From an uncultured Candidatus Poseidoniales archaeon (GTDB lineage Archaea > Thermoplasmatota > Poseidoniia > Poseidoniales > Poseidoniaceae), in NCBI GenBank assembly GCA_905182715.1, contig CAJJCP010000019.1:1-40647 (forward strand): DNA of 40,647 nt. Reading direction: 5' to 3'. Each line of letters starts with the position of its first letter. Within the stretch, counting starts at the first letter, position 1. Below the pieces are notes generated by a model that was given only the letters and a program-made list of their open reading frames with translations, was not told the origin of the DNA and made no database searches. The translations under genes were made by a program, and so were the position numbers. Of this stretch, positions 17,219 through 35,855 are shown piece after piece.

Positions 17219-18252
17219 AGAAGTAATTCCTTTCGATGAACTTTCTATAGAAGAAGTCGCTGTGCAACTAAAAGTCAGTGCACAAACGGTAATCCAAACC
17301 TGCATGGATATTCGAAGAGGCGAAAATGTACTCATTGTCTGCGACCCAACGACCGGAGATATTGGACAAGCATTGCACGAAGCGGCAAACGAACGCTCCG
17401 ACCGTGTTCTGCTCATTGTCATGCCAAAAGCACGTCATCATGGAGAAGAACCACCATCCACCCGTGGCAAATTTGATGCGCCAACAACAAGTGGTAATCG
17501 CCCCAACTCGCTATTCATTAACACATACCCGTGCAATACGTCAATCTCTACGTGGAGGGGCTCGTGTCGCTACAATGCCTGGAATGACCAATGAAATGTT
17601 CAGTCGAGGAGGAATGTCGGCGGACTTCTCACTCATCAAACAAAAAATCAGCGACCTTGGGTCTTATTTCCGTCGAAGAAGAATTGTGAAAGTAACATCT
17701 GAACAGGGAACTGATGTCAGCTTCGAAGTCAATTGGCGTGAATGGAAACTCGATGACAATGGTATTTGCAATCGTCCAAAAATGCTGACGAACCTCCCTG
17801 CAGGAAAAGCGTTCATCATGCCACGAGAAGGTACAATGAACGGAACCGTAGTCATCGACGGTTCATGGGAATCCAACTTGGTTGACGACCCAATTACATT
17901 TGTTATCGAAAATGGAATGGTTATGGATGTCAAAGGGGGCACTATTGCTGCAACGATTCGACAAGAATTCGGCGAGGCTGCAAAACGTCTTCGAACGAAA
18001 GATCGAGAAAATGTATGGACAATGGCTGAATTTGGTTTCGGAATGAATCCGCAAGCACGTCTTTCTGGCAATGTTCTCGAGGATGAAAAGCGACTTGGCA
18101 CATGCTATTTCTCAGTTGGAGATAACACGGCATTGGGTGGTACTTCTTCGGTTGGAATTCATATCCCAGGCGTACTCAAAAATGCCAGTGTTTGGCTTGA
18201 CGATACACTCTTTATTTCCAAAGGTGAATTTGCACTTTGGAATGATCAGTGA
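17190..18252 (+). CDS. M29-type aminopeptidase (leucyl aminopeptidase/aminopeptidase T; frame broken once)
   Basis: About 353 residues are in two frames, joined by a +1 step near 17455-17466 inside HHGEEPP-PVANLM, a conserved stretch. Family hallmarks follow: RYSLTHTRAIRQSLRGGARV, TMPGMTNEMFSRG, FVIENGMVMDVKGG, MAEFGFGMNPQARL, then EDEKRLGTCYFSVGDNTALGG. M29 enzymes are cytosolic dimers with two metals that remove N-terminal residues. The usual HxD metal pair near the C-terminus reads HIP here (GIHIPGV), so one ligand looks changed. Either the base call is wrong or the metal site is altered. The stop overlaps the convergent zinc-ribbon gene by 7 bp. Confidence 0.8.
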
Positions 18253-19788
18253 ACTGCATTCTGCATCCCACAAATTGGGCAAAATCTCCAATATGGGTCA
18301 AGACCAATACCACAACTTCGGCATAAAACGCCAGAGCGTATGGTTGGTTGTATGTTTTGCATGGGTTGCTGATTCCAACCCTGTTGCTGAGGTTGTTGCT
18401 GTTGATTCCAGCCTTGTTGCTGGGGTTGTTGTTGATTCCAACCCTGTTGCTGGGTTGCTGCTGCGGTTGTTGCGGTTGCTGTTGAGTTGTTGTGGGGTTG
18501 GCAGTGGGTTGGTTGCGGAGTTGGCTCGGGAGTAGCAGCAGGTTGTGCAAGCGGTTTACGCACTGGAGCAACTGGTCGTGGAAGCCCTTGGGTTTTTTCG
18601 GCTGCTGGTGATGAAATAAACTCAGAAAGTGAAACAACACCATCACCATCAGTATCAGCTTGCTTGTGTAGAATTTCTGCTTCTTCAATTGAAGTGCCTG
18701 TTGCAACGGCTAATTCTTCAATCGAAAGTTCCTGACTTCCATCGACATCTGCTGCAATGAAAGTGTTCTGCCGCACTTACGAATTCGGGTTCCGGTTCGG
18801 GCACATGTACTGGCTCTGGTTCTGGCTACATGGTTCAGGTTCAGGTTCCGGTTCCGGTTCAGGCACATGTACTGGCTCTGGTTCCGGTTCTGGCTCTGGG
18901 ACAGGCTCTGGAACGATAACGGGCTCTTCCTTGCCAAGACCCATGTCAAACGCACCCGAAAACGCATCTTCCTCGGCTTTTGCAACTAATTTCTGGTTCG
19001 AGGTGTCGAGTGTTGGCTCAGGTTCAGGCGTTTTTGTAACTGAAGGTAATTCAACTAAATCTTTTACCGCCACCGGTTCTAAGGTTTGAGGCAAGAGAAA
19101 CATTTTCTTCTGCTTTCGCCCCAGGCAAGGGGACTGTGTCAGCAGTTGACTGAGGGAGAGTTACGGATACCGGCAGAGATGCAATTGCTGTCGAGCCTGC
19201 TTCTCCACTCGCCAAGGATGGGATCGGTAAAGCATGACCCGCTACATCCATCGCCGCCTCAAGTTCATCAACAACGGTGAGAAGGGTCTCCATATTCCCC
19301 GCAGGGTCGGCAAATAAGGCTCGTATTGCATTGTGATATCGGGTAACTTCCCCTGCTGAGCCCGTAGTTGAAGCAATGGCTAAGAGTTTGATAATCCTCA
19401 TTGGGTCGGCAAGTGTTGCCAACTTATTTTGGTCATCAATGGATATTGCAGGAGAATTACCACTCGAGTTTCCGGTTGAGTCTGGTAGTCCAAGATAGTT
19501 GGAAAGTTGGTCCGGAAGGCTCATGAGTCCCAAATGTCCAGTGACCAAGTAATATATTTCGCCACCTTCACATTGAATACGTTCACTCGCAGCTTCAAAA
19601 TCGAAATCTCCGGGTAAAAGAACAATATCCGACAGAATCGAAAAGAATTGCTCTAACGCTTCACTGAGTTCCATTGCCATCAAGGTATGGACCATGTCAG
19701 ATGATTCAATAACGCCAAAATAGGCTGCTGCCTCATCCACTTCAATTCCACTGGGCATAGAAGCGCCTTCGAGATCTTTATCGGTCAT
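18246..19788 (-). CDS. Modular cytosolic protein: helical N-term, PEP repeats, EF-hand pair, QGWNQ repeats, zinc ribbon (frame broken about three times)
   Basis: About 510 residues are visible. The N-terminal part (19788 to about 19100) is acidic and mostly helical, with no family recognised. A +1 step near 19095 leads into a Pro-Glu repeat (PEPEPEPEP, VHVPEPEPE). Two compensating steps near 18830 and 18770 then reach an EF-hand pair, AADVDGSQELSIEEL and ADTDGDGVVSLSEF. A Pro-rich linker follows, then a Gln/Asn repeat of QQQGWNQQ units. A C-terminal zinc ribbon ends it (CRSCGIGLDPYWRFCPICG). There is no signal peptide or membrane helix. The start ATG 19788 follows GGGGGTAGGAA. It lies 88 bp downstream of the giant surface protein in the same direction, so co-transcription is possible. 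The function is unknown; a calcium-responsive scaffold is a guess. Confidence 0.7.
18362..18495 (-). repeat. QGWNQ/poly-Gln coding repeat
   Basis: On the minus strand this encodes a run of CAA/CAG codons with three QGWNQQ units (QQQGWNQQQPQQQGWNQQQ and one more). It is preceded by a mixed Thr/Ala/Gln stretch. It resembles prion-like low-complexity linkers and is prone to slippage. Confidence 0.8.
18800..18915 (-). repeat. Pro-Glu (PEPEP) coding repeat
   Basis: This is a tandem GAACCG/GAACCA hexamer array (plus-strand GGTTCC/GGCTCT units). It encodes PEPEPEPEP blocks separated by a repeated VHVPEP unit. A frame change lies inside it near 18830, probably a repeat-related base error. Confidence 0.75.
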
Positions 19789-19876: not shown

Positions 19877-22800
19877 TCAGCGGCTCCGACCCATATTAAA
19901 AATCGCTCTCGATTGTGGTGCAGACCATCCTGTTTCTTGTAATTGCATCATGATTGAACGCTCTTCATCTCCATCATCAAGAGAACTTCGGACCCAGTCT
20001 GCAGCGGATTCTCGATCGTCAGTCTGCCAGTCTTCAAAGATTGACAAGTCTATCTTGAGCGTTGCCTTTCGAACCTTAGCAGCGCCATCATCTTCACTTT
20101 CAGGCTCTGTTTGTTCAGCAAATGATGAACTCGACGGTGCACGTGACCTCGGAGAGGGGCCATCGCGAGAGGGGCCGCTTGCAGGGGATGCTGAACTTGG
20201 CCCTTTCCGGGTGGACCTTTGGAAGGGCCTCTCGACGGGCCACTTGGTGGCGCATTGGATGGGCCACTTGATGGGCCTCGTGAAGGCCCACTCGATGGGC
20301 CCCGTGAAGGAGCATTTCTCGTTGGGGGTGGAGATTGTGTACTGCGACTGTTCCTAATCGGAGCAGCTTCGTCGTCGTCATCATCATCCCAATCATCGTC
20401 ATCATCATCGTCAACGCTCGTAACTCATCACCTCGACTACGCATGAAGAGGACTGCCTCCAATGAGCAGAAGAACACGAACTCCGACGGCAACTGCGATC
20501 ATGACGGTCGATGAGCCGAGCAGTGAAGAAGTGCTCCATCGTCAGAGTTTGCCGTTGGAAGAGGACAGCCATCTGAAAATCCGTCTTCTCCTTTGGCTTC
20601 ATTCGGACAGTTATCTCTGAGGTCAGAAACACCATCGTTATCCGAATCAAGTTGGTCTAAGATACATCCAGTTGAATCAACATCTGCTCTTGCCGAGTAA
20701 GGTGTATCTGGACATAAGTCAGGTGAAGTGCCACTCAAATTATCTCCAAAACCATCGTAATCCTCATCCAGCCATTGTGTAGGGTTACCCGCAAGACCCG
20801 CAGGTTCAAACTCGTCACGGTAGCCATCGCCATCGTCAAAGCAACCGAAGTAATCAACGAAAGAGGTACCTGATTCTGTCGGGCAATCATCTGACTCAGA
20901 GCCGTTAGGATTGTCACCGTAACCATCTCCATCTTGGTCAAACCATTGTTCACTGTCCGTTGGGAAAGCATCACCTGATTGGTTTTCTCTCAAACCAGTT
21001 TCAGTATTGAGTGTGAAGTTGTAGGTGCCTGCAAAACCATCACCATCGAAATCTTGGTCAAATGCACTTTCATCGGTGCACCCATTCGCAAGAATTGGAT
21101 ATCCTGTTGGCGTATCGAGACAGGCATCATTCGCATCGGTAACTCCGTCACCGTCAGAGTCGCGTTGGGATGCAGAACAGCCGTTCTCATCGACATCTTC
21201 TCTTTCGTCGTAAATTGTATCAGGACACAGGTCCGAAGGGCCTGCAACGTTATCCAAATCCTCATCGGTTTGGAGTTGAGCATCACTGCAACCACTCGCA
21301 TCGACAATCTCGCCCAACTGGGTGAGAGGGCAAAGGTCGATGTCATTCATGATGGTATCACTGTCATCATCCAATTGGTTTTCTGCGCAACCAACTGAAT
21401 TGACCGTAAGTCCTTCATCAGTTCCAGCACAGATATCCTCTACATTGGGTACAAAATCTCCATCATCATCGGTAGCATCTAAAAATCTGCAACCAATACC
21501 AGTTCCATCTGTAAAAGGACTCGTACCTTCGAGCACACCTGCGATTGTTGGACATTCATCAGCTTGATAGCCAGCGGGATTATCACCGAATCCATCAGAG
21601 TCAAAATCAAGCCACAAGATTGGAGGTACTGCATTTGGGCCGTCGCAGATTCCATCACCGTCGGTGTCTGGATTCAATGGGTCAGTACCCGTATTTGTTG
21701 CATCAATGTAGGTTCCAGTGTCAGTCTCAACAGAATCGGCCAAGCCATCTGCATCATCATCAGTATCAGCAACAAGACCTGGCGTTGGTTGGTCGGCTGC
21801 ATTGTAATCGCTTGGTAGATCGTTTGGTAGTCCATCACCGTCTTTACTGTTGATTACGCCATCATTATCATCATCCCAAGCCATTATAAATTCGGTCCAT
21901 CGGCCAGGATAACCATCAGAATCATTATCCTCAGCAGCACCGGTTATGTTCGGGAATCGGTCAGGATTCGTAGCACCCTCTGAACCGTTGTCCCCGTAGC
22001 CATCGCCATCGGAATCTGCCCATTGAGTGCCATCAAATGGCCAAGCATCTGCACCGTGTCGTAACGTTCCATTCAAATCCGCCACTGGTTGAAGGGTCTG
22101 AAGAACCATCAAGGTCGGTGTCAAGACAGCCTTTGCGGTCTCGCCATGATGCGCCCCAATCCCATTTGCATGCATCTCCGTCTACAGGGTCGGAGGAGTT
22201 GTCACCCCAACCGTCACCATCGGTGTCTAGGTAATTGGATGGGTTGAATGGGAACAAGTCGCCATCCGGTTGACTCGAATCGTATTCTGTAATGCAACAG
22301 TCAAGCCCAGAATTATCCCCATAGCCGTCTCCATCACTGTCTGAAGCAAGTTTCCAATTGAATGTGAAAAAGTCTCCATCAAAGTAATTAAAATTGTTAT
22401 TTGACCAACCATCTTGGTCGTAATCGTTACATCCCTTACGGTCAATCCAAGAAGTCCCGTCATCATCGTTACAGGCATCTTCGACATCTGCATAACCATC
22501 GTTATCGAAGTCAAGGCAGCCGTACATGTAATACGAAGAAGGAGCATTTGCTGATTCACAAGCGTCATGGAGAGGGCCAAGGGCATTGTCCCCATATCCA
22601 TCACCATCGGCGTCAGACCATTGATTTCCTAACAGTGGAAGGTCATCAACCAAATCGAAAATGAGGTCTCGGTCTGCATCAGGATACAAACGTAAGACTT
22701 CAACATCCCAAAGAACACTGTCCTGAATGGCAAGGTGCAATGTTTCATTCGAATCGGTATACAGGCCAACGGTTCCTGTAGCGGTAATGTCTCCAAAGGA

Positions 22801-25800
22801 GAGGCTACTCCAAATGTACTGTGGGGGTGTTTGATTTCCAGAAAAGGATTCAGCATTGAGGCTGTTCCACGTCAAGAGGTTGTTTGAACCGACGCTGGTC
22901 ATCAAGATATAGATTCCATTTTCAGAAGACAGGTCCCATGCTCCATCGAGAGTCGATGTTGGTTGTTCTCCGAATGAATGCCAGTCTAAGGACCCATTTC
23001 GGACATAAAGAACGTCACTGTTCACATCTCCTCGAACGGCCATTGCAGGTTCTGCTCCACCCGTTAGGTCGAGATTGAAACTGTTGATTGAACCACTTGG
23101 TTGTGTAAGGACGGTTGAATTCCAAGTCGAGTTTTCGGCCCAAGTTGATTGATTTACTTGCCGTTCATAGAGGTTTAATGCTCCAGTCGAAGTGAGTGTT
23201 GCTACCATCATTGTTCCATCATCGGCCAAGGCGATATGGATTTTACTTGAAAGATCAGTGAGGCTTGTGATGGTACTCGAGGTGAAGTTTGTACCGTTAT
23301 ACATCCAAACACTGAGGTTGTGATTTTGGCCATCATTCGAAATTAAAGCTATTGCGAGGTCATCATTTGGCAGATAGATGGCTGGGAAATCACTGGAGAC
23401 TGCCTCGCCTTGTGAACCAATCATGGTTGTAGTCCAACTGCCATCATGATGGGACATGATCAATTGGTTATCTGTTGAATCGCGGTACAGCAAACTGGTT
23501 TCATCGTTTGAATCTGTGAGCACAACGATTGGGTCGGCAAGGTCAAGGTCGGTGGCAACTTGCGTGTTCGTCCAACCTGAATCGCCTTCAATAGAGGTGA
23601 ATATTTGATGGCCTCCAACGCCCAGGGTTGCATGCGCAATATGTTGATGGCCGTCTGAATCAAGTGCAGAACCAAGGAATGCACCCATCGTTCCAGTCGT
23701 TAGAATACTTTTTTCAACAGCAGTATAACTCGAAGTGGTTTGCATTTTCAAAGCATGGCCGCCTTCGGTCGAAAGAACGATTGGACGACCGGAACTGGTG
23801 CCTGCGAAAGCGAAACTGGTTGAATTCAGGGTCGTTGATGAAAGCGTGTTATCCGCCCATAGGCCGGTTGCTGTTCCATCGTCAACATGCTCGAGGAAAT
23901 GTAAGGATTGCCAGTTCTTGAAGGATAAGAGCATACTTGCTTCACCTCGACTGGCGGTTGAAAGATCAAGGAATTCAAGTTCATCAGCATAGGTAAAAGT
24001 CGTTGATTCCCAATCACGTTCCGAATACAATTCATGGACGACTTGGAAAGAAGTTCCCGAAGTTGATTGACGGTAACTCAAACTGATTTCGTTCAATCCA
24101 TCACCATCGATGTCACCAAGTGTCGACATCGACAGGCCCTTGTATTCTTGAGCCGAACCCGTAGCAAGTAATTCTGAACCGCTTAACAGACCTAATGCCG
24201 AACCGAGAATAAGTTCGATTTTACCGTTCCGAGTTGCACCTTGTTGCATAAGTAAAACATCATCGTACCCATCTTCATTGACGTCTCCAGCACCCATGAA
24301 CATTCGGCCAAGCATAGCATTGGCTGCATCGCCGGATTTGGTCCAGTTTGGCATAGACGGAGTGAATCCCAGCAGAAGAACCGTGATACAACCACACTTT
24401 TCCAGCTTGATAACCTTCAGTCCCATTATACACTTCTGAGAACATCATATCGTCAAAGCCATCAGCATTGACATCGCCGATGAAGTCAATGGTGTGTCCA
24501 AACATTTTTCCTTGAACTGTGGAAAGAATTGTTTGGTCTGCTGTACCATTGAAGCCCAAAGAGGAACCGAAGAAGATTTCAACGGAAGGAAAACCGCTGA
24601 ACGATTCGAAACTTGCCGCATTCGAGACCAGCAAATCATCGAAACCATCACCATTCAAATCACCTGAACCACTCAGTGAACGGCCCAAAAGAGTTGATTC
24701 TTGAGTTTGAGTGATGTTACGAGCATGGTTCATCATCGAACTGTTCCCTTGGAAAATTACAATTTTTCCTTTGTGAATTATTTCATTTGGAATGGTAGCG
24801 ACGACGATCGAATGATTGGCTGCAACAGCAGCTAAGTCAGCAAATCCATCGCCATTCATGTTTGCAATACCTTCGACTTTCCAGCCAAGTGCTTCACCTG
24901 CATTACCTGAAACATTCCACCATGAATCATTTTCGACTCCTAAAGAATTGCCGAGGAATATTTCAATCAAACCATGGTCTCCAGATTCATTTACTTGGGT
25001 GTTCTTCCAACCAGGTGAACCGATGGCAAGGTCATTTAATCCATCTCCATTGAAATCTTGAGCAGCAAGGCCCGAACCAAAGCGTTGACCTGCCTGAGAG
25101 CCTGTCATTGACCAGCTATTGGATGAAGAGATACCTTGAGCAGATCCAAAGAACACGGTCACTTGACCTGTTTCAGCGAGGTTGTTTGAGAAGCCGGGTT
25201 CAGAGAAGATGAAATCATCAAAACCATCTCCATTGATGTCAACCATTGCCGAGTCACCTTCTTCAACATCGACTGAAGCGGTGGCTTGGAAGTTTGGAAC
25301 AGGATTAATCCGGCCCTCATTTTGACCTGATAGACTTCGTAACAACTGCAGAGTAGTAATGCCATTGGTAAACGAAGTAGTTGCAATTTGTTCAACCGAA
25401 TTGGTGTCAAGACCCATACCAATCTGGCTGCCAAGGTTGGAATCTCGTACGAGCACTCGACGGTCGTAGGTGCTACCGTCATACCGGATTAATCGAACTT
25501 CTTCACCAGCCGTGTACAAGAGATGTGCAACTCCATCTGGATCCATTTCTAATTCTATTGAATGGCCCACTGGACCGATGTCGAGAAGATTGTCATACCA
25601 GATGTTACCACTGTAATTGAGCTGCCAAAGAGCGCCGTTTGCATCACGGAAAACCGCCAATTCCAATTGGTCGGGCAGTAATACCATCTCGATATCGGTT
25701 GGTTGAACGTTGTACCGAATTGTGATTTTTTGCCACGAAAGTTCAGAGAATACCGAACTTGGGTAGGCGATATGAGCAGACTTGATGTTATTGCCGTCGG

Positions 25801-26323
25801 CATAGAGGACGTATTGGCGACCGTCTTCATTGACTGCAAGAGCACAATCAACCAGAGAACTTTCATTCGCAGGAGACACTGAGTCAACGAGATACACCGA
25901 CCAACCTGATTGAACTGATGAATAGGATGCACTACCGCCTTCAAGAGAGCCGACATAGACATTGCCTTCCTCGGTCGTCCAACATGCATCAAAGCCTTCA
26001 TCATGGCTGAGTTGAATGTCAGGAGAGCCCATCGACTCATTTGGAAGCATCAGAAGCATTTCGTTCATCCAGATATCCAGTGCGGATTCTTCACGGACAG
26101 TTGCATCGGTCAATCCATCAAAGGAGAGGCTTGAACCTGCAAAATCATGGCTATAGGCATCGTTGAAAGTAATATATTCATTCGAAGACTGAACCAAGAG
26201 ATCATCCAATTCCATTTCAGATTCGAAAGGATGCTGTACAAGAGGTGAGAAAAGATGAACCACAAACAAGAGAGAAAGCAGCAAGGATACTGTAGGGAAA
26301 GTTCTGCTTGCCGCCGCCGCCAT
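19877..26323 (-). CDS. Giant surface protein: signal peptide, FG-GAP propeller, TSP3-like stalk, TM helix, acidic GPS tail (frame broken about six times)
   Basis: About 2,150 residues are visible. A signal peptide (MAAAASRTFPTVSLLLSLLF) starts at 26323. A beta-propeller carries seven FG-GAP-type calcium loops (DINGDGFDDFIFSEP, DFNGDGLNDLAIGSP, DVNEDGYDDVLL and others), as in integrin alpha chains. A second propeller-like region (about 24.0-22.75 kb) follows. A long stalk of thrombospondin-type-3-like Ca-binding repeats runs to 20.56 kb (DADGDGYGDN, DSDGDGVTDANDACLD). A membrane helix near 20.50-20.45 kb is split over two frames (VMIAVAVGVRVLLLIG then AVLFMRSRGDEL). A poly-Asp patch, a Gly-Pro-Ser tail and a short folded end (TLKIDLSIFEDWQ to FNMGRSR) complete it. 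Steps lie near 24350, 22085, 20507, 20473, 20415 and 20204. Adhesion or ligand sensing is inferred. Confidence 0.75.
20170..20310 (-). repeat. Gly-Pro-Ser coding repeat in the cytoplasmic tail
   Basis: On the minus strand this is a run of GGCCCATCN units encoding RGPSSGPSRGPSSGPS and variants. It is collagen-like in composition but lacks a strict Gly-X-Y period, so it is probably disordered. A -1 step lies near 20204. Confidence 0.75.
20560..22660 (-). repeat. Thrombospondin-type-3-like calcium-binding repeats (stalk of giant protein)
   Basis: This is a diverged array of Asp-rich units of about 13-40 residues. Two flavours alternate: QW-DxDGDGYGDN units and CPDT/GC-xDSDxDGVSD units with paired Cys. 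The Asp spacing matches calcium-coordinating TSP3 loops. The DNA units are too diverged to be a simple tandem repeat. Confidence 0.85.
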
Positions 26324-26469: not shown

Positions 26470-27102
26470 ATGGCGGCAAAGACCTACCTTATCGTAGCCA
26501 ATGGCCTTTGGCCGAAGGCGGATATTTGGAAGCCTGTAGCCCAAGCAGCATCACATGTTATTGCATGCGATGGAGCTGCTCATCAATGCCTCGAACACAA
26601 TCTTTCAATCGATACAGTCATCGGCGATATGGACAGTATATCTGAGGAAGTTCGAGGAAACATTCTACTGCAAGATTCGGCTCAATTCATTCCCCAAGAG
26701 AGTCAGGAAAACAATGACCTTGTCAAAGCCATTGAGTGGTCTGTTGGCCAAGGTGCAGAGCAAATAGAAGTAATTGGTATTGAAGGTGGCGATCTGGCTC
26801 ATCAATTTGCAGCGATATTCGCACTGTGTGAAGCGCCAGCAAACACCCGCCTCCATACTACAGAGAGCACGATACAATTACTTGACAAATCAGGTTATGA
26901 AAACGCTTCTATAGAAAAAAATACATCCTTTTCTTTATTTTCTATTGGCAATGTAGAAGGTGTAACAGTCACCGGAGCAAAATGGAATTTACACAACGAA
27001 ATATTACGGCCGGGAACGCAAGGACTTCACAACCAAGTCAAAGAGGATTGCCTAAAGATTGGATACTCTTCGGGCCAATTATTACTTTTCTTGAATCGTT
27101 GA
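26470..27102 (+). CDS. Thiamine pyrophosphokinase
   Basis: This 210-residue protein matches the TPK catalytic domain. IVANGLWP opens it, CDGAAHQCLEHNLSIDTVIGDMDSI follows with the metal-binding Asp residues, and ENNDLVKAIEW gives the conserved N-D. The thiamine-binding C-terminal domain is short but present (GAKWNLHNEILRPGTQGLHNQ). It transfers pyrophosphate from ATP to thiamine, making the cofactor TPP by salvage. The start is at ATG 26470. It is divergent from the giant surface protein gene and its end overlaps the convergent DUF4105 gene by 21 bp. No thiamine-synthesis gene or TPP riboswitch was seen next to it. Confidence 0.85.
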   Translation: MAAKTYLIVANGLWPKADIWKPVAQAASHVIACDGAAHQCLEHNLSIDTVIGDMDSISEEVRGNILLQDSAQFIPQESQENNDLVKAIEWSVGQGAEQIEVIGIEGGDLAHQFAAIFALCEAPANTRLHTTESTIQLLDKSGYENASIEKNTSFSLFSIGNVEGVTVTGAKWNLHNEILRPGTQGLHNQVKEDCLKIGYSSGQLLLFLNR

Positions 27103-27957
27103 ACTCGGCAAATGCTCACGAAGCATTTCTGAATAATCCCCTTCACCGTTCCATTCTTGAGCGATGAGGTCAATTCGAGCACGTTCGAGTGTTCCTTCCA
27201 ATCCACCCCAATCCTCAACCAATCCGAGTTTAAGCGCAGCTCGAGGAGTATAGCCAGGAAGGAAGTTTCGCCATAAGAAGGGTACACGGCCAGGTGTAAC
27301 TCGATTGACCATACGGACGATTGAGGTGTTGCACGTCGTCAAGAATGAATGGTACCATTCTGGGTTCTCAGCAAGGTTATTCGCTTTCAATGCTAATCGG
27401 TGCAGCATATCCTTATCTTTTCCAGGTGGAGTAATGGCTCGGAACATGTAATCCTTGTTTCCTCGTGCGTTCGTTCGCAACCCCGTGAGGTCTCGTTCAA
27501 AACCAACCAAGAGGTACAATTCATAATTTCGCCAAAGGCCATCCCATGGGTGATAGCGTTGCTTGACTCTTCGGCGTGCTTCAAACGAAAACGAAAGACA
27601 GGTTCCATCATTGAATTCAAAGGTAAGATAAGTATGTGCCATACCGTGAAGTGGATGGAAATGGTCAACAATAAACCAGATATCTTTGAGTTCTTCAACA
27701 TCGACGACGACCTCATCCGCCCAAGCTTCATCACGATCCCGAGTTGTTCGCCAAAAGAAGTCTCGAACATTTCGGAAAGTAATCGTACTTCCTTCAGTGG
27801 TCGTGGTCGTCACGTATTCACAATCAGAATTCCATTTTGCATCGATTTGAGGTTTTCGAGGACGTATACGTATGAACCAAAGAAGTACGCTTATTACAAT
27901 AAAAAGTAGACAAGAAGAGAGCAATAAACGCAAGAAGAAGAACATAATTCTCACCAT
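27082..27957 (-). CDS. DUF4105 (Lnb-like N-terminal domain) membrane-anchored protein
   Basis: This protein has 291 residues. An N-terminal hydrophobic segment (about 4-30, FFFLRLLLSSCLLFIVISVLL) acts as signal or anchor. The rest is outside the membrane. HPLHGMAHTYLTFEFNDG and FSFEARRRVKQRYHPWDGL match the DUF4105 pattern: His-rich strand, then an E-A-R-R core. TTCNTSIVRMVNRVTPGRVPF holds the later conserved Cys-Asn. In bacteria this domain is linked to lipoprotein N-acylation (Lnb). An archaeal version could act on lipid-anchored surface proteins, but that is inference. The start overlaps the end of the previous gene by 7 bp, so it is the last gene of a three-gene operon. Confidence 0.7.
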   Translation of the reverse strand: MVRIMFFFLRLLLSSCLLFIVISVLLWFIRIRPRKPQIDAKWNSDCEYVTTTTTEGSTITFRNVRDFFWRTTRDRDEAWADEVVVDVEELKDIWFIVDHFHPLHGMAHTYLTFEFNDGTCLSFSFEARRRVKQRYHPWDGLWRNYELYLLVGFERDLTGLRTNARGNKDYMFRAITPPGKDKDMLHRLALKANNLAENPEWYHSFLTTCNTSIVRMVNRVTPGRVPFLWRNFLPGYTPRAALKLGLVEDWGGLEGTLERARIDLIAQEWNGEGDYSEMLREHLPSSTIQEK

Positions 27958-29273
27958 TTATGCCAAATTCGAAGTTGATTATCCCACCAATCGGTGGTGC
28001 CGTCAGAATGTTGGCGCCAAAGAACCCCTTCATCATCCGTCATTGTTGGAAGACCTTGAGAATCGGGGGAACCGTCTGCAAGAATCATTGGCGTTGGTCC
28101 GAGGTCACGTAAAGTGCCACCACCTGTATCATCCTTCACTCGAACGAGGAGCATAAACACAACGATACAGACAATGAGGCCAAGCACTCCGATTGAGAAC
28201 CACCCTACAGATTCTGTTGGAGTTTCCTCACCGAAGGAACGGCTAGGAAGAGAGGCAGCTTCATCTTCGGAGAGAGTCAAACCCGGAAGCCGAACAAGAT
28301 TGATTCCATGAACCGTTCGAATTTGTTCATTGTTGATGACTTCTAATGTAATCAAGTGCACACCGGCGGGTAGAATTGAGCAATCATATGTCGTACTACG
28401 GTTACCTGGGAGTTCTGTGCCTTGAATGGTCCAAATCTTTTCAAAGGTCGAAAAATCAACTCCCGCCATGTTTGGAATCATCGTAATTTCACATGGATTA
28501 TCTGTAACATTTCCACTACCAATGACCGTCATCGAGAAGGCTGGAGCTGGGCGGTTATGAATGGAAAGATTAAGCCAATATTCTGCAGTTTGTCCTAAAT
28601 CATTACGATAAGCTTCTTTCAAAGTGTATTCTCCAGCAGGCCAGTGTGAACAGTCCAAAAGAGTCTGGTTGTCAAGAACTGTGAAAGGTGCACCCGAAAA
28701 AGTTCGTATCCCTGACGCATCATACCGAGGGCCTGTTTCATCAGCAAAAACACGGTCAATGGAGCAATTATCTCCGGTTTCAATCCTGTCCGGTGCATTC
28801 AATTCAAGCAGTATTTGTGGAGTCTTCAAAGCCGGCTTGAGAACATAAGACGGAAGTTGAAGTGTTGTAATTTTACTTCCATCCTGATTGATGAAATCAA
28901 GTCGAAGAGCGTGCTCTCCCTCCGACCATGCATCATAGACTAAACTGGCATTTGATTGGCCAGTAAACGCCATGTACTGTTCTTGTAAGACTTCCTTATC
29001 TTTGTGAATTCCATACAATCGCAATTCAATTTCGGTCCAATCTGAAGATGAGTTGAGAATGACGACCACCCGTATGGCATCAGGTTCGCCGTCTTGGTTC
29101 ATATCCATGGTATCGTTTCGCAAGGCTACTAATGTCAAACCTTCAGCAGCAAGTGCATCTTCAACTGCGGAGGATTCTGCTTGTACGTCTTGAACAAGAC
29201 CGAGAGGGAGCACGATGCAACCAAGCAAAAGTGAAACGAGAAGGAACGGCAAAACTCGTGAGGATTCACGCAT
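27951..29273 (-). CDS. Type I membrane protein with beta-sandwich ectodomain and WRQ/WWD tail
   Basis: This protein has 440 residues. A signal peptide (about 1-32, ending near VQAES) is followed by an ectodomain of about 330 residues. The ectodomain has repeated Ig-like strands and paired Cys (DNCSIDR, LLDCSHWPAGEYTL, YDCSILPAGVHLITL). The phrase AGxHxITLxV is typical of PKD/Ig-like domains. One membrane helix lies at about 365-388 (WFSIGVLGLIVCIVVFMLLV). A cytoplasmic tail ends with LWRQHSDGTTDWWDN, a short aromatic motif that may bind another protein. The start overlaps the TSP3 gene's end by 8 bp, giving tight translational coupling. The function is unknown; it is probably a partner of the TSP3 protein. 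Confidence 0.78.
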   Translation of the reverse strand: MRESSRVLPFLLVSLLLGCIVLPLGLVQDVQAESSAVEDALAAEGLTLVALRNDTMDMNQDGEPDAIRVVVILNSSSDWTEIELRLYGIHKDKEVLQEQYMAFTGQSNASLVYDAWSEGEHALRLDFINQDGSKITTLQLPSYVLKPALKTPQILLELNAPDRIETGDNCSIDRVFADETGPRYDASGIRTFSGAPFTVLDNQTLLDCSHWPAGEYTLKEAYRNDLGQTAEYWLNLSIHNRPAPAFSMTVIGSGNVTDNPCEITMIPNMAGVDFSTFEKIWTIQGTELPGNRSTTYDCSILPAGVHLITLEVINNEQIRTVHGINLVRLPGLTLSEDEAASLPSRSFGEETPTESVGWFSIGVLGLIVCIVVFMLLVRVKDDTGGGTLRDLGPTPMILADGSPDSQGLPTMTDDEGVLWRQHSDGTTDWWDNQLRIWHKW

Positions 29274-31842
29274 CTACGTCACCTCCTTGTTCTGGAAGAG
29301 GTTGTGGAGGCGCTAACTCCATTCCAGTAGGCATTGGAAGAGGTGGTAGATGTTCTAATGGGATCATACCTACAGGTAATGTATCCATGGTTAAAGCATC
29401 TAAGTTGGCCGTATCTTTTGAATCAAATAATTCCTCTTGAAGGAATTCTGTATCTCGGCCCTTGCGAACGATAAGAGCTAAGGTCGCACCGAAAATGAAA
29501 CCAAAACCAATCACCAAATACGTCAACCATGAAGCTGCGGGATCTTCTCCTAAAATGGCAACTGCGGCTGAAAACTCACCATATGAATCAGACCAACCAT
29601 CGCCATTGGAATCAGCACAACCTTGTGTATCTCGGGTAGAGATTCCAGAAACTTCGGGACAATCATCTCGAAGTGCTCCTAAAGGCACATCTCCGAAACC
29701 ATCACCATCTGTGTCTCGCCATTGAAGAGATTCTGTTGGAAACGAATCTGCTGAACCGTAAGGATGAGCTTGCCAACTCTCTGTTGGGTCTGACCAGCCA
29801 TCACCATCGGTATCTCGACAGCCGAGACGGTCAAGAATAGAGGTACCACGAACTTCAGGACAAGCATCACCTTGGTTGCCATCTTTGGAATCTCCAAATC
29901 CGTCACCATCAGTGTCTCGAGACTGTGTTGGTTCGTGGATGAATGAATCGCCAAGGTCGGACCAGCCATCACCGTCGGTATCAGGGCAACCCCAACGGTC
30001 ACCGCCGGATGAAGGCCCAACAGAAGTTCCTGCTTGACTCGGACAAACATCGGCGGTCGTTCCAAGTGGATTATCGCCTCGTCCATCACCATCAAGGTCA
30101 TGCCACTGCGTGGGGTCCATTGGCCAAGCATCGCCTTTACCACCGGGGCTTGCTAACCACGAATTTGTCGAATCGGACCAACCGTCTTCGTCACTGTCAG
30201 GGCAGCCCCATCGGTCAAAAGTGGAGGTCCCTTCAGTCGTTCTACAACCGTCACCGCGATAAGCAAACTTGAGCGTTTGGCCGTCAAAATATTCGATATT
30301 ATCGCCATAACCATCGTTGTCGGTATCATACCATTGACTTTCATCATCGGGGAACGCATCGGCAAATCCATCAGGATGGGCAATCCAATCATTGGTCGGA
30401 TCGGAATAACCGTCCGTGTCAACGTCCCTACATCCAAGACGGTCAAAGTAAGAAATCCATCCAGATTCTACTTCCTCTGCCGATGAGAAGACACAGACAT
30501 CGGCTTCAAAACCGTCGAGGTTATCGCCATATCCGTCCCCATCAGTATCTCGATATTGTGAATCGATAAATGGGAAGTCATCGATTTGGGAAGCGCCATA
30601 GGACTGATTATCGCCCCAACCATCTTCGTCAGAATCAGCCCATTGCGTTGGATTATCGGGGAAGTAATCCACTTGGAGGGCGCCTTCCGATTGGTTATCG
30701 CCCCAACCATCTGAATCTCGGTCTTGCCATTGTGATGGTTCGGCTGGGAAAGCATCCGAGCCGTTCGCTTTGGTCCAATTGAGGTCTCCGTCTGAAAAAC
30801 CATCTGCATCCGAGTCGGTGCACCCATATCGGTCACCGGTTGATGTACCCGTGATGAAAGGACAAGCGTCGGGCGTTGAAGCGGTTTGCAACCATGTCCC
30901 AATACCCCAGCCAGCGCGAGAAAGGTTCCAATCTCCATCTTCCCAATTGTCACCAAACCCATCTGCATCAGTATCGTTCCATTGCGTAGGGTCGAGAGAA
31001 AAGGCATCGCCGAATCCAATTGGATGAGCATACCAGGCAGTTACGCCGTCTAAAGCACCGGGATCTTCGTTTGAGTACCCATCCCCATCTGAATCAAGGC
31101 ATCCGTACCGATCTTGAAGCGAATAACCACGACGGAATGGGCAATGGTCTCCTTCAAATCCATCCAGATTATCGCCATAGCCATCATTATCGCTATCGAG
31201 CCATTGAGTCACTTCACTGACAAAGGCGTCAGCTCCGTTTTGTGGACCCCAGCCAAAATCAGGGTCTGACCAACCGTCGGAATCAGAATCAGTACAGCCT
31301 TTTCGGTCATTGGTAGAAGTTCCAACAAGGTTTTCACAATCATCTTCATTATCAATAAATCCATCTTCATCCGTATCTCGGTTGGCTTTGTCAATTGAAG
31401 GCGTAAGCGTATAATCAAACCCGTCGTTACACCACGAATCTTCAGATTTGATTTTCACATAAACAAAACTAGCTGCATTCACAGTTGTCGAGAGGACTTT
31501 TGAGGAGGCACTGTCGTCAGCAGAAGTATCGACAATCGTACCCCCTTGAGCGTTAAGAAGAGAAAAAGTTCCAGTCCAGCCGTCACCTGGGCACCACCAT
31601 GCAGCACCGTTCATCGAACCGGAAAAAGAGACTTGAACGATGTCGCCTTTCTTGGCTTCAATCTTCCAAAAATCTGTTTTGTCATTGCCTGCATCACAAT
31701 CTGGGTCACACACATAACCGTTCGACGTAACGCCATCAGTGAGAGGATTTGCACTTTGCAGGGTATCGTCAGCAGAAACCGGAGTAACCATACAAATCAG
31801 CATCGCGGCGAGGCAAAGGGCCATCAACCGCTTCGCGAGCAT
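29266..31842 (-). CDS. TSP3-repeat surface protein with N-terminal PPC-like domain
   Basis: This protein has 858 residues. The start is taken at ATG 31842 (MLAKRLMALCLAAMLICM), a clean signal peptide; the longer frame upstream adds an Arg/His-rich stretch unlike a signal. A beta-rich domain follows (about 25-140, DFWKIEAKKGDIVQVSFSG). It resembles pre-peptidase C-terminal (PPC) domains and carries two Cys pairs. Residues about 145-790 are calcium-binding repeats. They alternate QW-D-DxDGxGDN units (about nine) with GCxDxDxDGWSD units (about eight). One membrane helix (about 800-818) and a Pro/Leu-rich cytoplasmic tail end it. It is unbroken, unlike its larger neighbour, and heads a three-gene overlapping operon. 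Confidence 0.88.
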   Translation of the reverse strand: MLAKRLMALCLAAMLICMVTPVSADDTLQSANPLTDGVTSNGYVCDPDCDAGNDKTDFWKIEAKKGDIVQVSFSGSMNGAAWWCPGDGWTGTFSLLNAQGGTIVDTSADDSASSKVLSTTVNAASFVYVKIKSEDSWCNDGFDYTLTPSIDKANRDTDEDGFIDNEDDCENLVGTSTNDRKGCTDSDSDGWSDPDFGWGPQNGADAFVSEVTQWLDSDNDGYGDNLDGFEGDHCPFRRGYSLQDRYGCLDSDGDGYSNEDPGALDGVTAWYAHPIGFGDAFSLDPTQWNDTDADGFGDNWEDGDWNLSRAGWGIGTWLQTASTPDACPFITGTSTGDRYGCTDSDADGFSDGDLNWTKANGSDAFPAEPSQWQDRDSDGWGDNQSEGALQVDYFPDNPTQWADSDEDGWGDNQSYGASQIDDFPFIDSQYRDTDGDGYGDNLDGFEADVCVFSSAEEVESGWISYFDRLGCRDVDTDGYSDPTNDWIAHPDGFADAFPDDESQWYDTDNDGYGDNIEYFDGQTLKFAYRGDGCRTTEGTSTFDRWGCPDSDEDGWSDSTNSWLASPGGKGDAWPMDPTQWHDLDGDGRGDNPLGTTADVCPSQAGTSVGPSSGGDRWGCPDTDGDGWSDLGDSFIHEPTQSRDTDGDGFGDSKDGNQGDACPEVRGTSILDRLGCRDTDGDGWSDPTESWQAHPYGSADSFPTESLQWRDTDGDGFGDVPLGALRDDCPEVSGISTRDTQGCADSNGDGWSDSYGEFSAAVAILGEDPAASWLTYLVIGFGFIFGATLALIVRKGRDTEFLQEELFDSKDTANLDALTMDTLPVGMIPLEHLPPLPMPTGMELAPPQPLPEQGGDVDA
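29570..31400 (-). repeat. Thrombospondin-type-3-like calcium-binding repeats
   Basis: The repeat units alternate QWxDxDGDGxGDN and GCxDxDGDGWSDP, linked by CPxxxGTSxxDRxGC. The alternation is regular enough to suggest a rigid rod with bound calcium. Confidence 0.85.
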
Positions 31843-31890
31843 GGTTCTCCAATAGGTGGTGTGCCTATGAACACCGCGCCTTAGCAATCT

Positions 31891-31920: not shown

Positions 31921-33654
31921 TCAACTGCGAGCAGCGAGAATCAATTCTTTGATTGAAAACGCTGGCATATCCATTGAACTGTTCTTCGATTCAGAAACAA
32001 TACTGTGCTGCATAGCCATATCGCCGCGAATGAATTTAATGTAACGTTGCTCTTCATTTTCTTCAAAAGGATGCAAACCAATGTTCTCTTGATAGGCGAT
32101 TCCAATCCAGGTGCCGTCTGGAGACATGACGGTTTCAAAGAAGTCGTGGAGTGCGTGGGTATCGCCACTGCTTTCCTCATAGGCGGTAACGGTATGAAGC
32201 GGAGTCGGGTCAATAATTCTGAAATCCCAAACATCACCTTTCATTGGATGGTGAAGGGCACCTGCATAGAGATACCAATCTTTTCCAGCAACGTAGCCAT
32301 CTTCGCTGTTCTTTTGGTCGAAGTCAAGCCCGTAGAAAGCCACACTGACCACTTGGTCTTCGGTGATCGAAACGAAGGGATACATGTTGATTCCGCGATC
32401 AAATGCGGTTGCATTCCATGACTCCCAACTGGTACCGTTATCGTACGAAACTGCAATGCGCATCTCCCAAGCACCGGTGTTTCCGTTTGGACAGTCTGCC
32501 CAAGTCACGACAACCATGCCGCCTTCATTGTTGTTGACTACAGGATAGCCTTCAGGACAGTTCCCTTCACGTGGACCGACTGCAACAGGTTCTTGCCATG
32601 TTCCGTCACTTGGACTTGGTCCTGTTCCACGTCCGTAATCATCACTGATTCGAACTTGAACAGTTCCTGAATCTGAATCTGCATCTTCTTGGGCTACAAA
32701 GACATAGGGGCCATTGTTTTGGCTGGAGATCGTTGACCATCCACCCGGCATGGCATAGCATTGTGAAAAGGGTGCTCGACCGCTTTCTGAGTGATAATAC
32801 CAGTAACGACCAACGTCACCAGAGCATTCTGGAGGCGAAGCCCCTGAATTTCCAAGATAGTGAATGATACCGTCGCCTTGTGCTGCAACCCATGGCCGAT
32901 CATCAGCGGCCATTGTCTGCATTCGTTCACAAACTACAGGTGACATGTAGGTGTTGCCACCGTCTTCGAACATGTGCCACCAATTGTCTTCCAAAGTGGT
33001 ATCGAGATAGTAGACGATGTCATTCGCGTCGACTGCAATATCGCCTTCATCGCCGAGGCATTCGGAACCTGCACCCGTACCAGTACCAACCAATGAATTC
33101 CCTAAATTGCCTGGCGTAGGGTTGAAATTATCGCCATGACTCCATGTTTCACCGTTATCGTTTGAAATCCAAAACCAAGATGCCCAATAATCCCAACTGG
33201 TCATCTCTCCGTCTTCGCAAGCATACCATGTATCGAGGTTGCCGCCAATAACTGGAGCAAATGGATTACCTTCACCACCCCAACGCAAATCTTTGTGGGC
33301 TGTTACGAAGAGGTTGCCTTGACTGTCGATGGAAAGGCTTGGCTCATAGCCAATGCCATAGCCTTCATATCCTGCATCTTGACCATTGTCGGGGTCAATA
33401 CATTCCTCATGTCGAGGCATGTATTCTGGTTCATTCCAAGTGAAATACACTTGGTCGCCTTGAAGCGATTCTTGTGTTTCGCTCGGATTCAGACCATTGG
33501 ACAGTGAAGGTCCCCAAATAGCCGCTAAAAGAAGGGTGATGACAGCAATAGCAATGGTGGCACCAGCAGCCAGATTGAGGTCTCGCTTACCCGATGAATC
33601 GGCTGAAACTTTTGCTTCAGCCAACAGAATAGATTCTGGAGCAGCGGTCGCCAT
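31921..33654 (-). CDS. Membrane-anchored Asp-box (sialidase-like) beta-propeller protein
   Basis: This protein has 577 residues. The short cytoplasmic N-terminus (1-26) and a single helix (about 28-48, AAGATIAIAVITLLLAAIW) make it a type II anchor. The outside part is a beta-propeller with Asp boxes: SNDNGETWSHG and SYDNGTSWESW (S-x-D-x-G-x-T/S-W). It also has VQVRISDDYGRG and repeated EPSLSIDSQGNLFV-type strands. The sialidase catalytic Arg triad and Tyr/Glu pair are not evident, so enzyme activity is doubtful. A binding role is equally possible. It is rich in Trp, Asp and Cys. It lies 47 bp after the GT4 gene in the same direction and may be co-transcribed with it. Confidence 0.8.
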   Translation of the reverse strand: MATAAPESILLAEAKVSADSSGKRDLNLAAGATIAIAVITLLLAAIWGPSLSNGLNPSETQESLQGDQVYFTWNEPEYMPRHEECIDPDNGQDAGYEGYGIGYEPSLSIDSQGNLFVTAHKDLRWGGEGNPFAPVIGGNLDTWYACEDGEMTSWDYWASWFWISNDNGETWSHGDNFNPTPGNLGNSLVGTGTGAGSECLGDEGDIAVDANDIVYYLDTTLEDNWWHMFEDGGNTYMSPVVCERMQTMAADDRPWVAAQGDGIIHYLGNSGASPPECSGDVGRYWYYHSESGRAPFSQCYAMPGGWSTISSQNNGPYVFVAQEDADSDSGTVQVRISDDYGRGTGPSPSDGTWQEPVAVGPREGNCPEGYPVVNNNEGGMVVVTWADCPNGNTGAWEMRIAVSYDNGTSWESWNATAFDRGINMYPFVSITEDQVVSVAFYGLDFDQKNSEDGYVAGKDWYLYAGALHHPMKGDVWDFRIIDPTPLHTVTAYEESSGDTHALHDFFETVMSPDGTWIGIAYQENIGLHPFEENEEQRYIKFIRGDMAMQHSIVSESKNSSMDMPAFSIKELILAARS

Positions 33655-33701
33655 GGTGAGTTGTGGGACCGTTGTGCTTTGGAGGTTACGCTTGTAGGCG
33701 T

Positions 33702-34973
33702 TCAGTTCTTTGACGCAACCATAGAAACGTAAATCTTTTCGTAATCTTCAGCATTGTGTTCATAGGTGTAGGTATTTAGAACGCGCGCTCGTCCTCGCTC
33801 AGCTTGAGCAGTACGGCTTTCGGGGTCTTCAAGAGAACGGCATACGGCATTGGCTAAATCAGAGGGGTTTCCAGTTTCAAAGAGTTCGCCAACGGTTGAA
33901 TCAATCATTTCTGTAAGAGGTGGTTGGTCAACAGTTACGACCGGTGTACCACTTGCTAATGCCTCCAATGGGATGAGGCCTTGGCCTTCATAATACGATG
34001 GATAAACGACCAAATCTGCACTTCGGAAGTGTTGAGCTAATGCTTCAAATGACATTCCTGGTTGAATGAAAACAGCATGACCAACACCAAGTTTCTTTGC
34101 TTGGCGAAGTAATGTCTTAGCCATATGCCCTCTTCCAATGATACATAATCGGGCGCCAGGGAAGCGCTGAAGGATTTCAGGCATAGCACGTAGGAGTGTA
34201 CGATGGCCTTTTCGAGCGACAAGGCGCCCAACTGCAAGTAAGAGAGGGGTTTCTTTAGACGCCCGGCCGCACAAAGCATCTTCATCTGCTGCATCGTATT
34301 TTTTGCGAAGGGCTTCATGTTCTAATTGTTCATCTTCATCATCATGATTCATAGGTCGGAACACCAAATGGTCAACTCCATACAAGATTGTTTCACATTT
34401 CCATTGTTCCGGAGGAGAATACCAGCGTTGGAATTCCTGTTTGGTCGAGTCGCTGATCGCAACACATACCGAAGATTCAGAGATTCCAGCTTGTTCGTAT
34501 TTCGAATACCATTTTGCAGTAGTGAGAATCGCTAAATCATTCGGATTTTTCCAAGTCGCCGATTCTCGGTGTTTGGCTGCAAGGCGCATACCTTCGCGCT
34601 CTCCAATCCAACTGCCATTGAGTGCTGAGAGGACGGGGGCTATGGTTGATTCAACCATCCGGTATTCTTTTTTGGTCCAACTCACCAAGGGCAAAAGGGT
34701 GTGAACAACGTCAATTGGCTCCCGTTTGTGAAGGATTTGGAGAGCCTTCAAGGCGTTCTTCCCGTATGAACGGGTAAATGCCATCGGTGCTTTGAGCCAA
34801 GGAACTTCAATCACTGAAACTCCTTGTTGAGACGGAGCTCGGCCTTTATGGGTTCGAGTAATGATACTCACATCATGCCCACGTGATGCTAAATGGCCTG
34901 CTAAATGGTAAACCACAGAACCGATACCCCCCCAACGAGGAGGGTATTCACCAGACACCATGGCAATGTGCAT
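33702..34973 (-). CDS. GT4-family glycosyltransferase
   Basis: This protein has 423 residues. The start is at ATG 34973 (MHIAMVSGEYPPRWGGIGS), where the family N-terminus begins; the frame is open further upstream but would run into the divergent GT2 gene. The acceptor domain has GGIGSVVYHLAGHLASRGHDV. The donor domain has LLAVGRLVARKGHRTLLRAMP, ARLCIIGRGHMAKTL and the nucleotide-sugar site YEGQGLIPLEALASGTPVV (E-x7-E). GT4 enzymes move sugars from nucleotide donors with retained configuration. Given the surface-protein neighbours, a role in N-glycan or exopolysaccharide assembly is plausible. No membrane helix is seen, so it acts at the cytosolic face. The acceptor is unknown. Confidence 0.9.
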   Translation of the reverse strand: MHIAMVSGEYPPRWGGIGSVVYHLAGHLASRGHDVSIITRTHKGRAPSQQGVSVIEVPWLKAPMAFTRSYGKNALKALQILHKREPIDVVHTLLPLVSWTKKEYRMVESTIAPVLSALNGSWIGEREGMRLAAKHRESATWKNPNDLAILTTAKWYSKYEQAGISESSVCVAISDSTKQEFQRWYSPPEQWKCETILYGVDHLVFRPMNHDDEDEQLEHEALRKKYDAADEDALCGRASKETPLLLAVGRLVARKGHRTLLRAMPEILQRFPGARLCIIGRGHMAKTLLRQAKKLGVGHAVFIQPGMSFEALAQHFRSADLVVYPSYYEGQGLIPLEALASGTPVVTVDQPPLTEMIDSTVGELFETGNPSDLANAVCRSLEDPESRTAQAERGRARVLNTYTYEHNAEDYEKIYVSMVASKN

Positions 34974-35078
34974 GTGTGTGGGACAGGCCGTTGTGGTTTC
35001 AATGTCACCTCCAACAACATCAAAAAAATCAACTTTTGAACCCAATGCCTTCAAGGAGGTGTGTAATGTGGGAGCCTC

Positions 35079-35855
35079 ATGGGCGATAAACTCCCTGTAA
35101 CGGTTACAGTAATTCTTCCGACTCGAAATGAGGAAGAAGCACTTGGACCTACAATCGATGCGATTCCGCGTGGCTGGTGTAAAAACCTTGAAATTATGAT
35201 TGTTGACGGTAATTCTTCCGATCGAACGCGTGAAATCGCGTTGGAAAAGAAAATTCGAGTTCACCTTGAAGATAGAAAAGGCTACGGCCGAGCATATAGA
35301 ACTGGTTTCGATGTCGCAAAGAACGATATCATCGTCACCATGGATGCTGATTGCACGTATCCTGCTGAATTAGTCCCTACCTTGGTCAAGCGTCTCCTTG
35401 ATGATGACCTTGATTTCATCACATGCGACCGCCTTTCATTGGCAGAAGACGGCTCAATGTCAGGAATCCATGGATTTGGAAACTGGGCACTTTCGTTCAC
35501 TGCTCGTCTTTTGTTTGGCTATGGCGTCAAAGACTCTCAGTCAGGAATGTGGGTATTCCGTAAATCTATTTTCAATAATGATGCTATGCGTCCAACCAAT
35601 GATGGAATGCCTCTCTCAGAAGAAATGAAAATTCTCGCTCGGCGTATTCTAGGAAAGGACAAGGCAGTCGAAATCTCTGTGCCATACCGTCCTCGTGTTG
35701 GTGAAGCAGAAATCCACACCTGGGGCGACGGATGGAAGAACTTCAAATTCCTCTTTGCTCGACGACTTGGATTGCACCGAACCCTCACTCCATGGGGCGG
35801 TCGTGATTCAAATCCAGATTCAACAAACAAGGATTTACCAGAACAAAAGAAGTGA
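35079..35855 (+). CDS. GT2-family glycosyltransferase (dolichyl-phosphate-sugar synthase-like)
   Basis: This 258-residue protein has a GT-A fold. The opening VTVILPTRNEEEALGPTID, the DGNSSDRTREIA loop and the metal-binding DAD of IVTMDADCTYP match the DPM1/GT2 group. Later motifs are FGYGVKDSQSGMWVFRKS and SEEMKILARRI. There is no C-terminal membrane helix, so it resembles soluble DPM1-like enzymes that charge polyprenyl phosphate with a hexose. The start is at ATG 35079, with GGAGG about 20 nt upstream. It is divergent from the GT4 gene across 105 bp, which likely holds both promoters. Together they suggest a small surface-glycosylation locus. Confidence 0.88.
   Translation: MGDKLPVTVTVILPTRNEEEALGPTIDAIPRGWCKNLEIMIVDGNSSDRTREIALEKKIRVHLEDRKGYGRAYRTGFDVAKNDIIVTMDADCTYPAELVPTLVKRLLDDDLDFITCDRLSLAEDGSMSGIHGFGNWALSFTARLLFGYGVKDSQSGMWVFRKSIFNNDAMRPTNDGMPLSEEMKILARRILGKDKAVEISVPYRPRVGEAEIHTWGDGWKNFKFLFARRLGLHRTLTPWGGRDSNPDSTNKDLPEQKK

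Follow-up and report, generated by a model that had tools for sequence, protein, structure and literature searches.

A giant Poseidoniales membrane protein with an integrin-alpha-type propeller and a conserved C-terminal tail, co-conserved with its downstream gene

The sequence examined here (the window) is a stretch of 40,647 nucleotides from an uncultured Candidatus Poseidoniales archaeon, namely contig C19 (CAJJCP010000019.1) of a 1.78 Mb assembly in 36 contigs that is 73% complete (GCA_905182715.1). On its minus strand, from 26323 to 19880, lies a gene for a giant surface protein, which we call the receptor as a provisional label, in the same provisional sense in which adhesion or sensing was first proposed as its function; just downstream lies a second gene, which we call the partner. 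In the window the receptor gene is spread in pieces over three frames. Compared with L058, the nearest full-length relative, this copy has seven frame-changing indels: +1 near 24355, +1 near 22060, +2 near 20536, +1 near each of 20455, 20425 and 20417, and -1 near 20200. Their net of 6 bases leaves the first and last pieces in the same frame; a rod segment at about 21950-21615, in-frame but divergent and poorly aligned to L058, is outside this count. The original prediction had joined the pieces into one gene, and this is right, because relatives read the whole gene as one open frame. Among 35 relative loci (L038-L072), 27 are complete and open throughout, with neither stops between membrane helix and tail nor a tail encoded separately; seven are cut by contig ends and one is broken by a run of Ns. 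The 27 loci (two with some ambiguous residues) yield 22 distinct proteins of 2022-2223 codons, as five contigs came twice. The expectation that gene calling would lose the tail thus holds for the broken window copy and not for the family. Within the window's genus, 34 of 35 genomes have a long match to the middle piece, and the one without it is 57% complete; the named relatives that carry the gene (up to 95% identity over that piece) are Ca. Poseidoniales/Poseidoniaceae or 'Euryarchaeota' metagenome-assembled genomes, in agreement with the planktonic archaeon proposed as host.

Seven frame-changing indels are also what could be seen if the gene were dead in this lineage. However, changed codons between the breaks are mostly synonymous (synonymous to non-synonymous, piece by piece, 138:37, 94:36, 70:52 and 16:8, as raw codon counts against L058 with the indel-rich 20.20-20.54 kb excluded), which argues for coding constraint on the pieces. 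Frameshifts also hit several other genes, both at 15.4-24.4 kb (an M32 carboxypeptidase, an M29-like peptidase and the partner) and in a gene at 36.0-37.4 kb, next to an intact stretch at 27-32 kb, a pattern that fits errors of assembly or sequencing. With the open reading frame of the relatives added, decay seems very improbable to us, and such errors more probably account for the breaks.

Once joined, the pieces give the following order of parts: signal peptide, beta-rich region into which a propeller is inserted, rod of calcium-type loops, membrane helix, acidic patch, Gly-Pro-Ser linker and tail (Table 1). The original prediction had named nearly all of these, and about this architecture, taken alone, we have hardly any doubt. 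The propeller of the window copy has seven calcium loops, starting at 25240, 25057, 24862, 24661, 24475, 24285 and 24114 (span 25240-24088), and strict counts of the pattern [DN]x[DN]x[DN]Gxx[DE] in the propellers of five relatives are 7, 6, 6, 5 and 7 (L058 has 7). The Pfam FG-GAP match reaches 89.1 bits, and a plain sequence search of PDB with phmmer retrieves integrin alpha-IIb at E 3.4e-11. In an AlphaFold2 (AF2) model of the L058 head, residues 310-743 superpose on integrin alpha-5 over 376 residues (VIA-align Z 28.7, root-mean-square deviation 3.5), and every one of the 50 entries listed by VIA-align for the propeller is an integrin. The part thus has the seven-bladed FG-GAP propeller fold, with moderate model confidence there, and the regions beside it show no reliable fold in this model. 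DDB1, which holds several propellers, topped the head's Foldseek rows by E-value and was discarded, its query TM score being only 0.14-0.17. The rod of L058 adds 12 further loops of the strict calcium pattern; it scores 17.8 bits against Pfam TSP_3, and the window piece 21 bits, both below the cut-off of 25, so that the tandem loops of the thrombospondin-like rod stand as first described and the name can be no firmer than 'TSP3-like'.

Table 1. Features of the receptor locus, in window positions.
Feature	Position	Strand	Basis
Start codon and signal-peptide-type hydrophobic N-terminus	26234..26323	-	Judged by eye; similar N-terminus in relatives
N-terminal beta-rich region, first half of the propeller's flank	25310..26233 (end approximate)	-	AF2 mostly strands, low confidence; coordinates projected from L058
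Integrin-alpha-type FG-GAP beta-propeller; frame change near 24355	24009..25309	-	Pfam FG-GAP, PDB phmmer, VIA-align, loop pattern
Second beta-rich region	22665..24008 (ends approximate)	-	AF2 strands, low confidence
Rod of acidic calcium-type loops, TSP3-like; frame change near 22060	20545..22664 (ends approximate)	-	Pfam, profile searches, loop pattern
Single transmembrane helix; indels nearby in window copy	20455..20511	-	Hydrophobic stretch; hydropathy in relatives
Acidic (poly-Asp) patch after membrane helix	20368..20415	-	Sequence; present in relatives
Gly-Pro-Ser-rich low-complexity linker; frame change near 20200	20111..20355	-	Sequence, L058 alignment, identity comparison
Conserved 61-residue tail domain, predicted three helices	19880..20062	-	Profile, alignment, AF2 model
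Partner gene, co-conserved, broken in window: N-domain, linker, EF-hand pair, putative zinc ribbon	18249..19788	-	Orthologs, Pfam, co-occurrence
Upstream gene with Lnb_N-type domain, locus member in window's family	27082..27957	-	Pfam, locus comparison
440-residue membrane protein with conserved Trp-rich end, upstream locus member	27951..29273	-	Orthologs, distribution
873-residue calcium-loop-rich surface protein, upstream locus member	29266..31887	-	Locus comparison

Past the membrane helix, a low-complexity stretch of about 100 residues leads to the tail, which corresponds to the small folded C-terminal end of the original prediction. Ten columns of the tail are invariant in 14 sequences from two families, R35, L41, Q42, G45, W46, Q50 and S51 of the 61 residues among them. 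Mean pairwise identity among the 22 full-length proteins, with region borders set by the analyst, is 0.51 in the tail against 0.25 in the linker and 0.28 in the helix (acidic patch 0.47, propeller 0.39, rod 0.55), so the tail is kept far better than its connection to the membrane, and the rod is also well kept. AF2 predicts helices at 30-48, 53-63 and 67-79 of an 80-residue C-terminal piece, and from residue 31 onwards the ten-residue mean of the predicted local distance difference test score (pLDDT) is 90-96. No match of weight was obtained for the tail among Pfam, NCBIfam or PDB profiles (with 14 tails searched against Pfam, the best E was 0.089, from one member and to a non-UBA family), Foldseek gave nothing at E 0.001 or better, and the best VIA-align Z was 4.1, a tie of the unrelated helical folds of saposin A, a chain of a MukEFB complex entry and histidyl-tRNA synthetase. 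We presume a likeness to UBA-like small helical domains, one that is unproven, neither a profile nor a fold match having been obtained for it.

We followed the distribution of the tail in a near set of 59 genomes, 35 of the window's genus and 24 of the other family, and in a wider set of 292 genomes of the order. The tail profile gives one match each in 37 of the near genomes (32/35 and 5/24, respectively); two of the three misses in the window's genus are receptors that run into a contig end, and the third is a poor genome. The N-domain of the partner occurs in exactly the same 37 genomes, and in all of them it lies on the same contig and strand, directly downstream, with 63-229 nucleotides between the matched segments. 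Order-wide, the tail is found in 161 genomes and the partner in 159: the two occur together in 155, the tail alone in 6 and the partner alone in 4, and 127 have neither. Two matches in one genome are restricted to a few cases, namely the tail in G068, G177 and five of the six genomes of genus g2, and the partner in G177 and G191. Of the 155 genomes with both, adjacency was checked in the 37 and in 10 more loci whose tail is of the receptor type, where the partner follows the tail in 10/10. A class-wide search found the tail in 180 of 339 genomes, and among the matches listed all belong to the same order or closer. The gene for thiamin pyrophosphokinase, which flanks the receptor on its other side, served as a control: it is present in 54 of the 59 near genomes and in all 10 genera, so that adjacency alone does not entail the receptor's pattern. 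The upstream gene for a 440-residue protein is also found in 37 of the 59, in a set that differs from that of the tail by three genomes each way. The linkage spans a small surface locus, in which receptor and partner are the tightest pair. A link with the archaellum was also considered: the archaellin family PF01917 occurs in 40 of the 59 genomes, and the 24 genomes of the other family show no clear link, with tail and archaellin together in 3, the tail alone in 2, archaellin alone in 4 and neither in 15; PF04659 was found in none of the 59 and is useless as an archaellum marker there.

The partner, which the original prediction had missed, can be read whole in an ortholog of 519 codons (L038:11549-13105), where a conserved N-domain of about 200 residues is followed by an acidic linker rich in Pro, then by an EF-hand pair, a Gln-Pro stretch and a putative zinc ribbon. 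The N-domain matches no Pfam family of weight, and the zinc ribbon is below the cut-off of its Pfam models. The predicted EF-hand pair reaches its curated cut-off marginally: in L038, EF-hand_7 scores 30.0 (cut-off 30) and EF-hand_1 25.5 (cut-off 25.4), and in L057 EF-hand_5 and EF-hand_1 are over the cut-off and EF-hand_7 under it. Clear EF-hand loops number two in L051, L054 and L057 and one in L038 and L043. No membrane helix is evident in six partner orthologs, whose highest 20-residue hydropathy is 1.06-1.68.

Propellers of the integrin-alpha type bind ligands, calcium at the level of sea water would occupy the loops and make the rod stiffer, the orientation of a type I protein puts a C-terminal tail inside the cell, and a flexible linker lets such a tail reach a partner. 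We tentatively favour the reading that the receptor is a type I membrane protein that binds at the cell surface as a tethered receptor and, through its tail, docks the adjoining cytosolic protein; taken as a whole, and as distinct from the architecture, this functional statement falls somewhat short of an even chance. The propeller would bind a ligand on particles, on cells or on other surface proteins, sea-water calcium would keep the rod stiff, and the tail would be a cytoplasmic docking site for the downstream protein as its cytosolic adaptor. The EF-hands of the partner could make this contact calcium-dependent, and binding or calcium state could then be reported inside the cell, or the receptor could simply be positioned. 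Both the docking of the partner and signalling are steps that we infer. A bolder version, in which the two genes form an outside-in system, ligand binding is passed through the helix to the tail and read by an EF-hand/zinc-ribbon adaptor, and the tail also serves surface hydrolases as a docking tag, we regard as unlikely.

Several observations weigh against docking and signalling as set out here. The six tail-only genomes all belong to genus g2, where the copies read carry the tail on hydrolases; the partner was not found at the six g2 loci, one of which (L122) is uninformative, its contig ending 304 nucleotides past the tail. Conversely, the four partner-only genomes all belong to genus g18, in which the receptor is missing at that place: in 4/4 loci the pyrophosphokinase gene, the partner, a homolog of the upstream 440-residue protein and a calcium-loop-rich protein of 825-833 codons are all present, and neither tail nor head was found. 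A partner kept without the receptor must have a use of its own. EF-hands are not apparent in the partner of L056 (by pattern) or of g18 (by eye), and the L038 ortholog has its single clear loop, so that in view of the g18 genomes EF-hands are not kept everywhere. The pyrophosphokinase is a single control and a housekeeping gene, and presence follows genera, which implies few independent events and leads us to claim no probability for the co-occurrence. Linkage to the receptor is not peculiar to the partner, since the 440-residue gene follows largely the same pattern. As for the protein itself, the predicted cytoplasmic side of the tail depends on one helix and the start, and the model of the L058 head (1196 residues, modelled once) is weak overall, with a mean pLDDT of 56.8 and a predicted template modelling score of 0.43.

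The occurrence of the tail on other proteins bears on what it does. The search first proposed, for the same tail on other receptors, gave none in the searched genomes of the window's genus, where the profile matched no other protein; the tail did appear on other proteins in g2, where six loci were read (one of them, L130, masked by Ns). One carrier is 1464 residues long (L121, L123 and L129), and its L121 copy is a subtilase that also has CARDB and NEW3 domains. Another, of about 850 residues (L122 and L124), combines in its L122 copy an alpha/beta-hydrolase domain with 18 calcium-type loops. In these carriers a membrane helix precedes the tail without a long linker. Its presence on a subtilase and a hydrolase makes the tail a movable module, and suggests that docking or placing is its general job, with signalling only one possible outcome. 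Such a general anchor would fit a receptor that is a structural surface scaffold, a stalk of the cell coat whose tail retains or positions it without signalling, and so would the other rod proteins read in the genus, each with its own post-helix end, and the presence nearby of another calcium-loop-rich protein and a GT4 glycosyltransferase. An anchor alone, however, leaves the integrin-type propeller and the near-constant downstream EF-hand gene unexplained, and we consider a pure scaffold rather unlikely, if still to be taken seriously. A tail common to surface-type hydrolases in one genus could also indicate that the receptor captures particles or polymers as part of a degradation complex, its head holding substrate for surface peptidases or hydrolases. 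Poseidoniales are described, in the portions available of PMC6336850 and PMC6864105, as breaking down proteins and further kinds of large organic matter, and M29-like and M32 peptidase genes come after the partner. However, one of these two genes is on the opposite strand and both products look cytosolic, and no Pfam enzyme family was matched by the receptor pieces or by L058; we regard capture as quite improbable compared with the tethered receptor that we favour.

Below the head, integrins have beta-sandwich domains known as thigh and calf; in the receptor, judged by its sequence, the rod of calcium-type loops takes this place. The FG-GAP propeller with calcium loops and the single membrane helix are shared with integrin alpha; the receptor differs in that its propeller sits inside another beta-rich region and its tail is predicted to be folded. 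Moreover, integrin alpha has the calcium motif in three or four of its seven blades only, in contrast with the seven loops of the window, and bears after the helix a KXGFFXR motif that is absent from the relatives read by eye, although some integrins also lack it (excerpts of PMC3192720). The bacterial integrin-type seven-blade propellers described in the same excerpts are closer in having the calcium-binding motif in every blade, unlike the animal ones; the receptor differs from them in being archaeal and in placing the propeller on a rod with a membrane helix and a conserved tail. Thrombospondin-type genes are widespread in Poseidoniales according to the accessible part of PMC6461757. With these genes, which may include its own, the receptor shares tandem acidic calcium-type loops, and it differs in remaining under the TSP_3 cut-off, in being membrane-bound and in having the tail. 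The likeness to integrin alpha and thrombospondin claimed at the outset therefore holds for the propeller and the calcium loops and for nothing beyond those parts. The Asgard integrin-beta-4-like family, which adjoins tubulin/FtsZ genes (PMC9258230, in part), is likewise archaeal, integrin-like and accompanied by a constant neighbour gene, and differs in being beta-like, from another lineage and beside another neighbour. Poseidoniaceae-specific families with calcium-binding domains also figure in PMC9258230, whose available text portions do not name the receptor gene.

Already in print, as far as the available portions of these papers go, are Poseidoniales thrombospondin-type genes, bacterial integrin-type propellers and Asgard integrin-beta-like genes. 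The receptor, the tail and the partner went unmentioned in the literature listings and excerpts searched, which did not extend to supplements or most subscription papers. New here are the pairing of tail and partner in exactly the same near genomes, with the partner always just downstream, and two apparent domains, the tail and the partner N-domain. Poseidoniales are described as outnumbering all other planktonic archaea in ocean surface waters and as having no cultured members (abstract of PMC6461757), and the candidates so far named for particle attachment or surface sensing are archaella, thrombospondin-type genes and flotillins (excerpts of PMC6461757 and PMC6336850). The receptor would add a defined candidate for holding particles or sensing surfaces in this order, with a head, a tail and an adjoining partner that can be tested without culture, and an archaeal case in which an integrin-alpha-type head is part of a single-pass protein with a conserved domain past its membrane helix.

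Among the upstream members of the locus, the 440-residue protein is limited to four of the 10 genera, those with the receptor in the near set, and has no Pfam match; a WW-like reading of its Trp-rich end was dropped, with no Pfam match at E 0.1. Two loci of the other family were examined, and in neither was the gene with the Lnb_N-type domain seen at this position. Farther upstream, positions 31921-35264 of the window hold a BNR-like protein (below cut-off) and the GT4 glycosyltransferase, and genes that look similar by eye lie ahead of the g18 locus. The window's own genome also encodes a second giant FG-GAP membrane protein of 2247 codons (L109:7456-14196, on G000:C12), whose end past the helix contains two QGYxxExAxxYAQQ-type units and is unlike the receptor's tail. 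In the other families of calcium-loop rod proteins read (L103, L108, L112, L115 and others), the post-helix ends are alike within each family, and one of these families, a subtilase, ends in a poly-Pro stretch.
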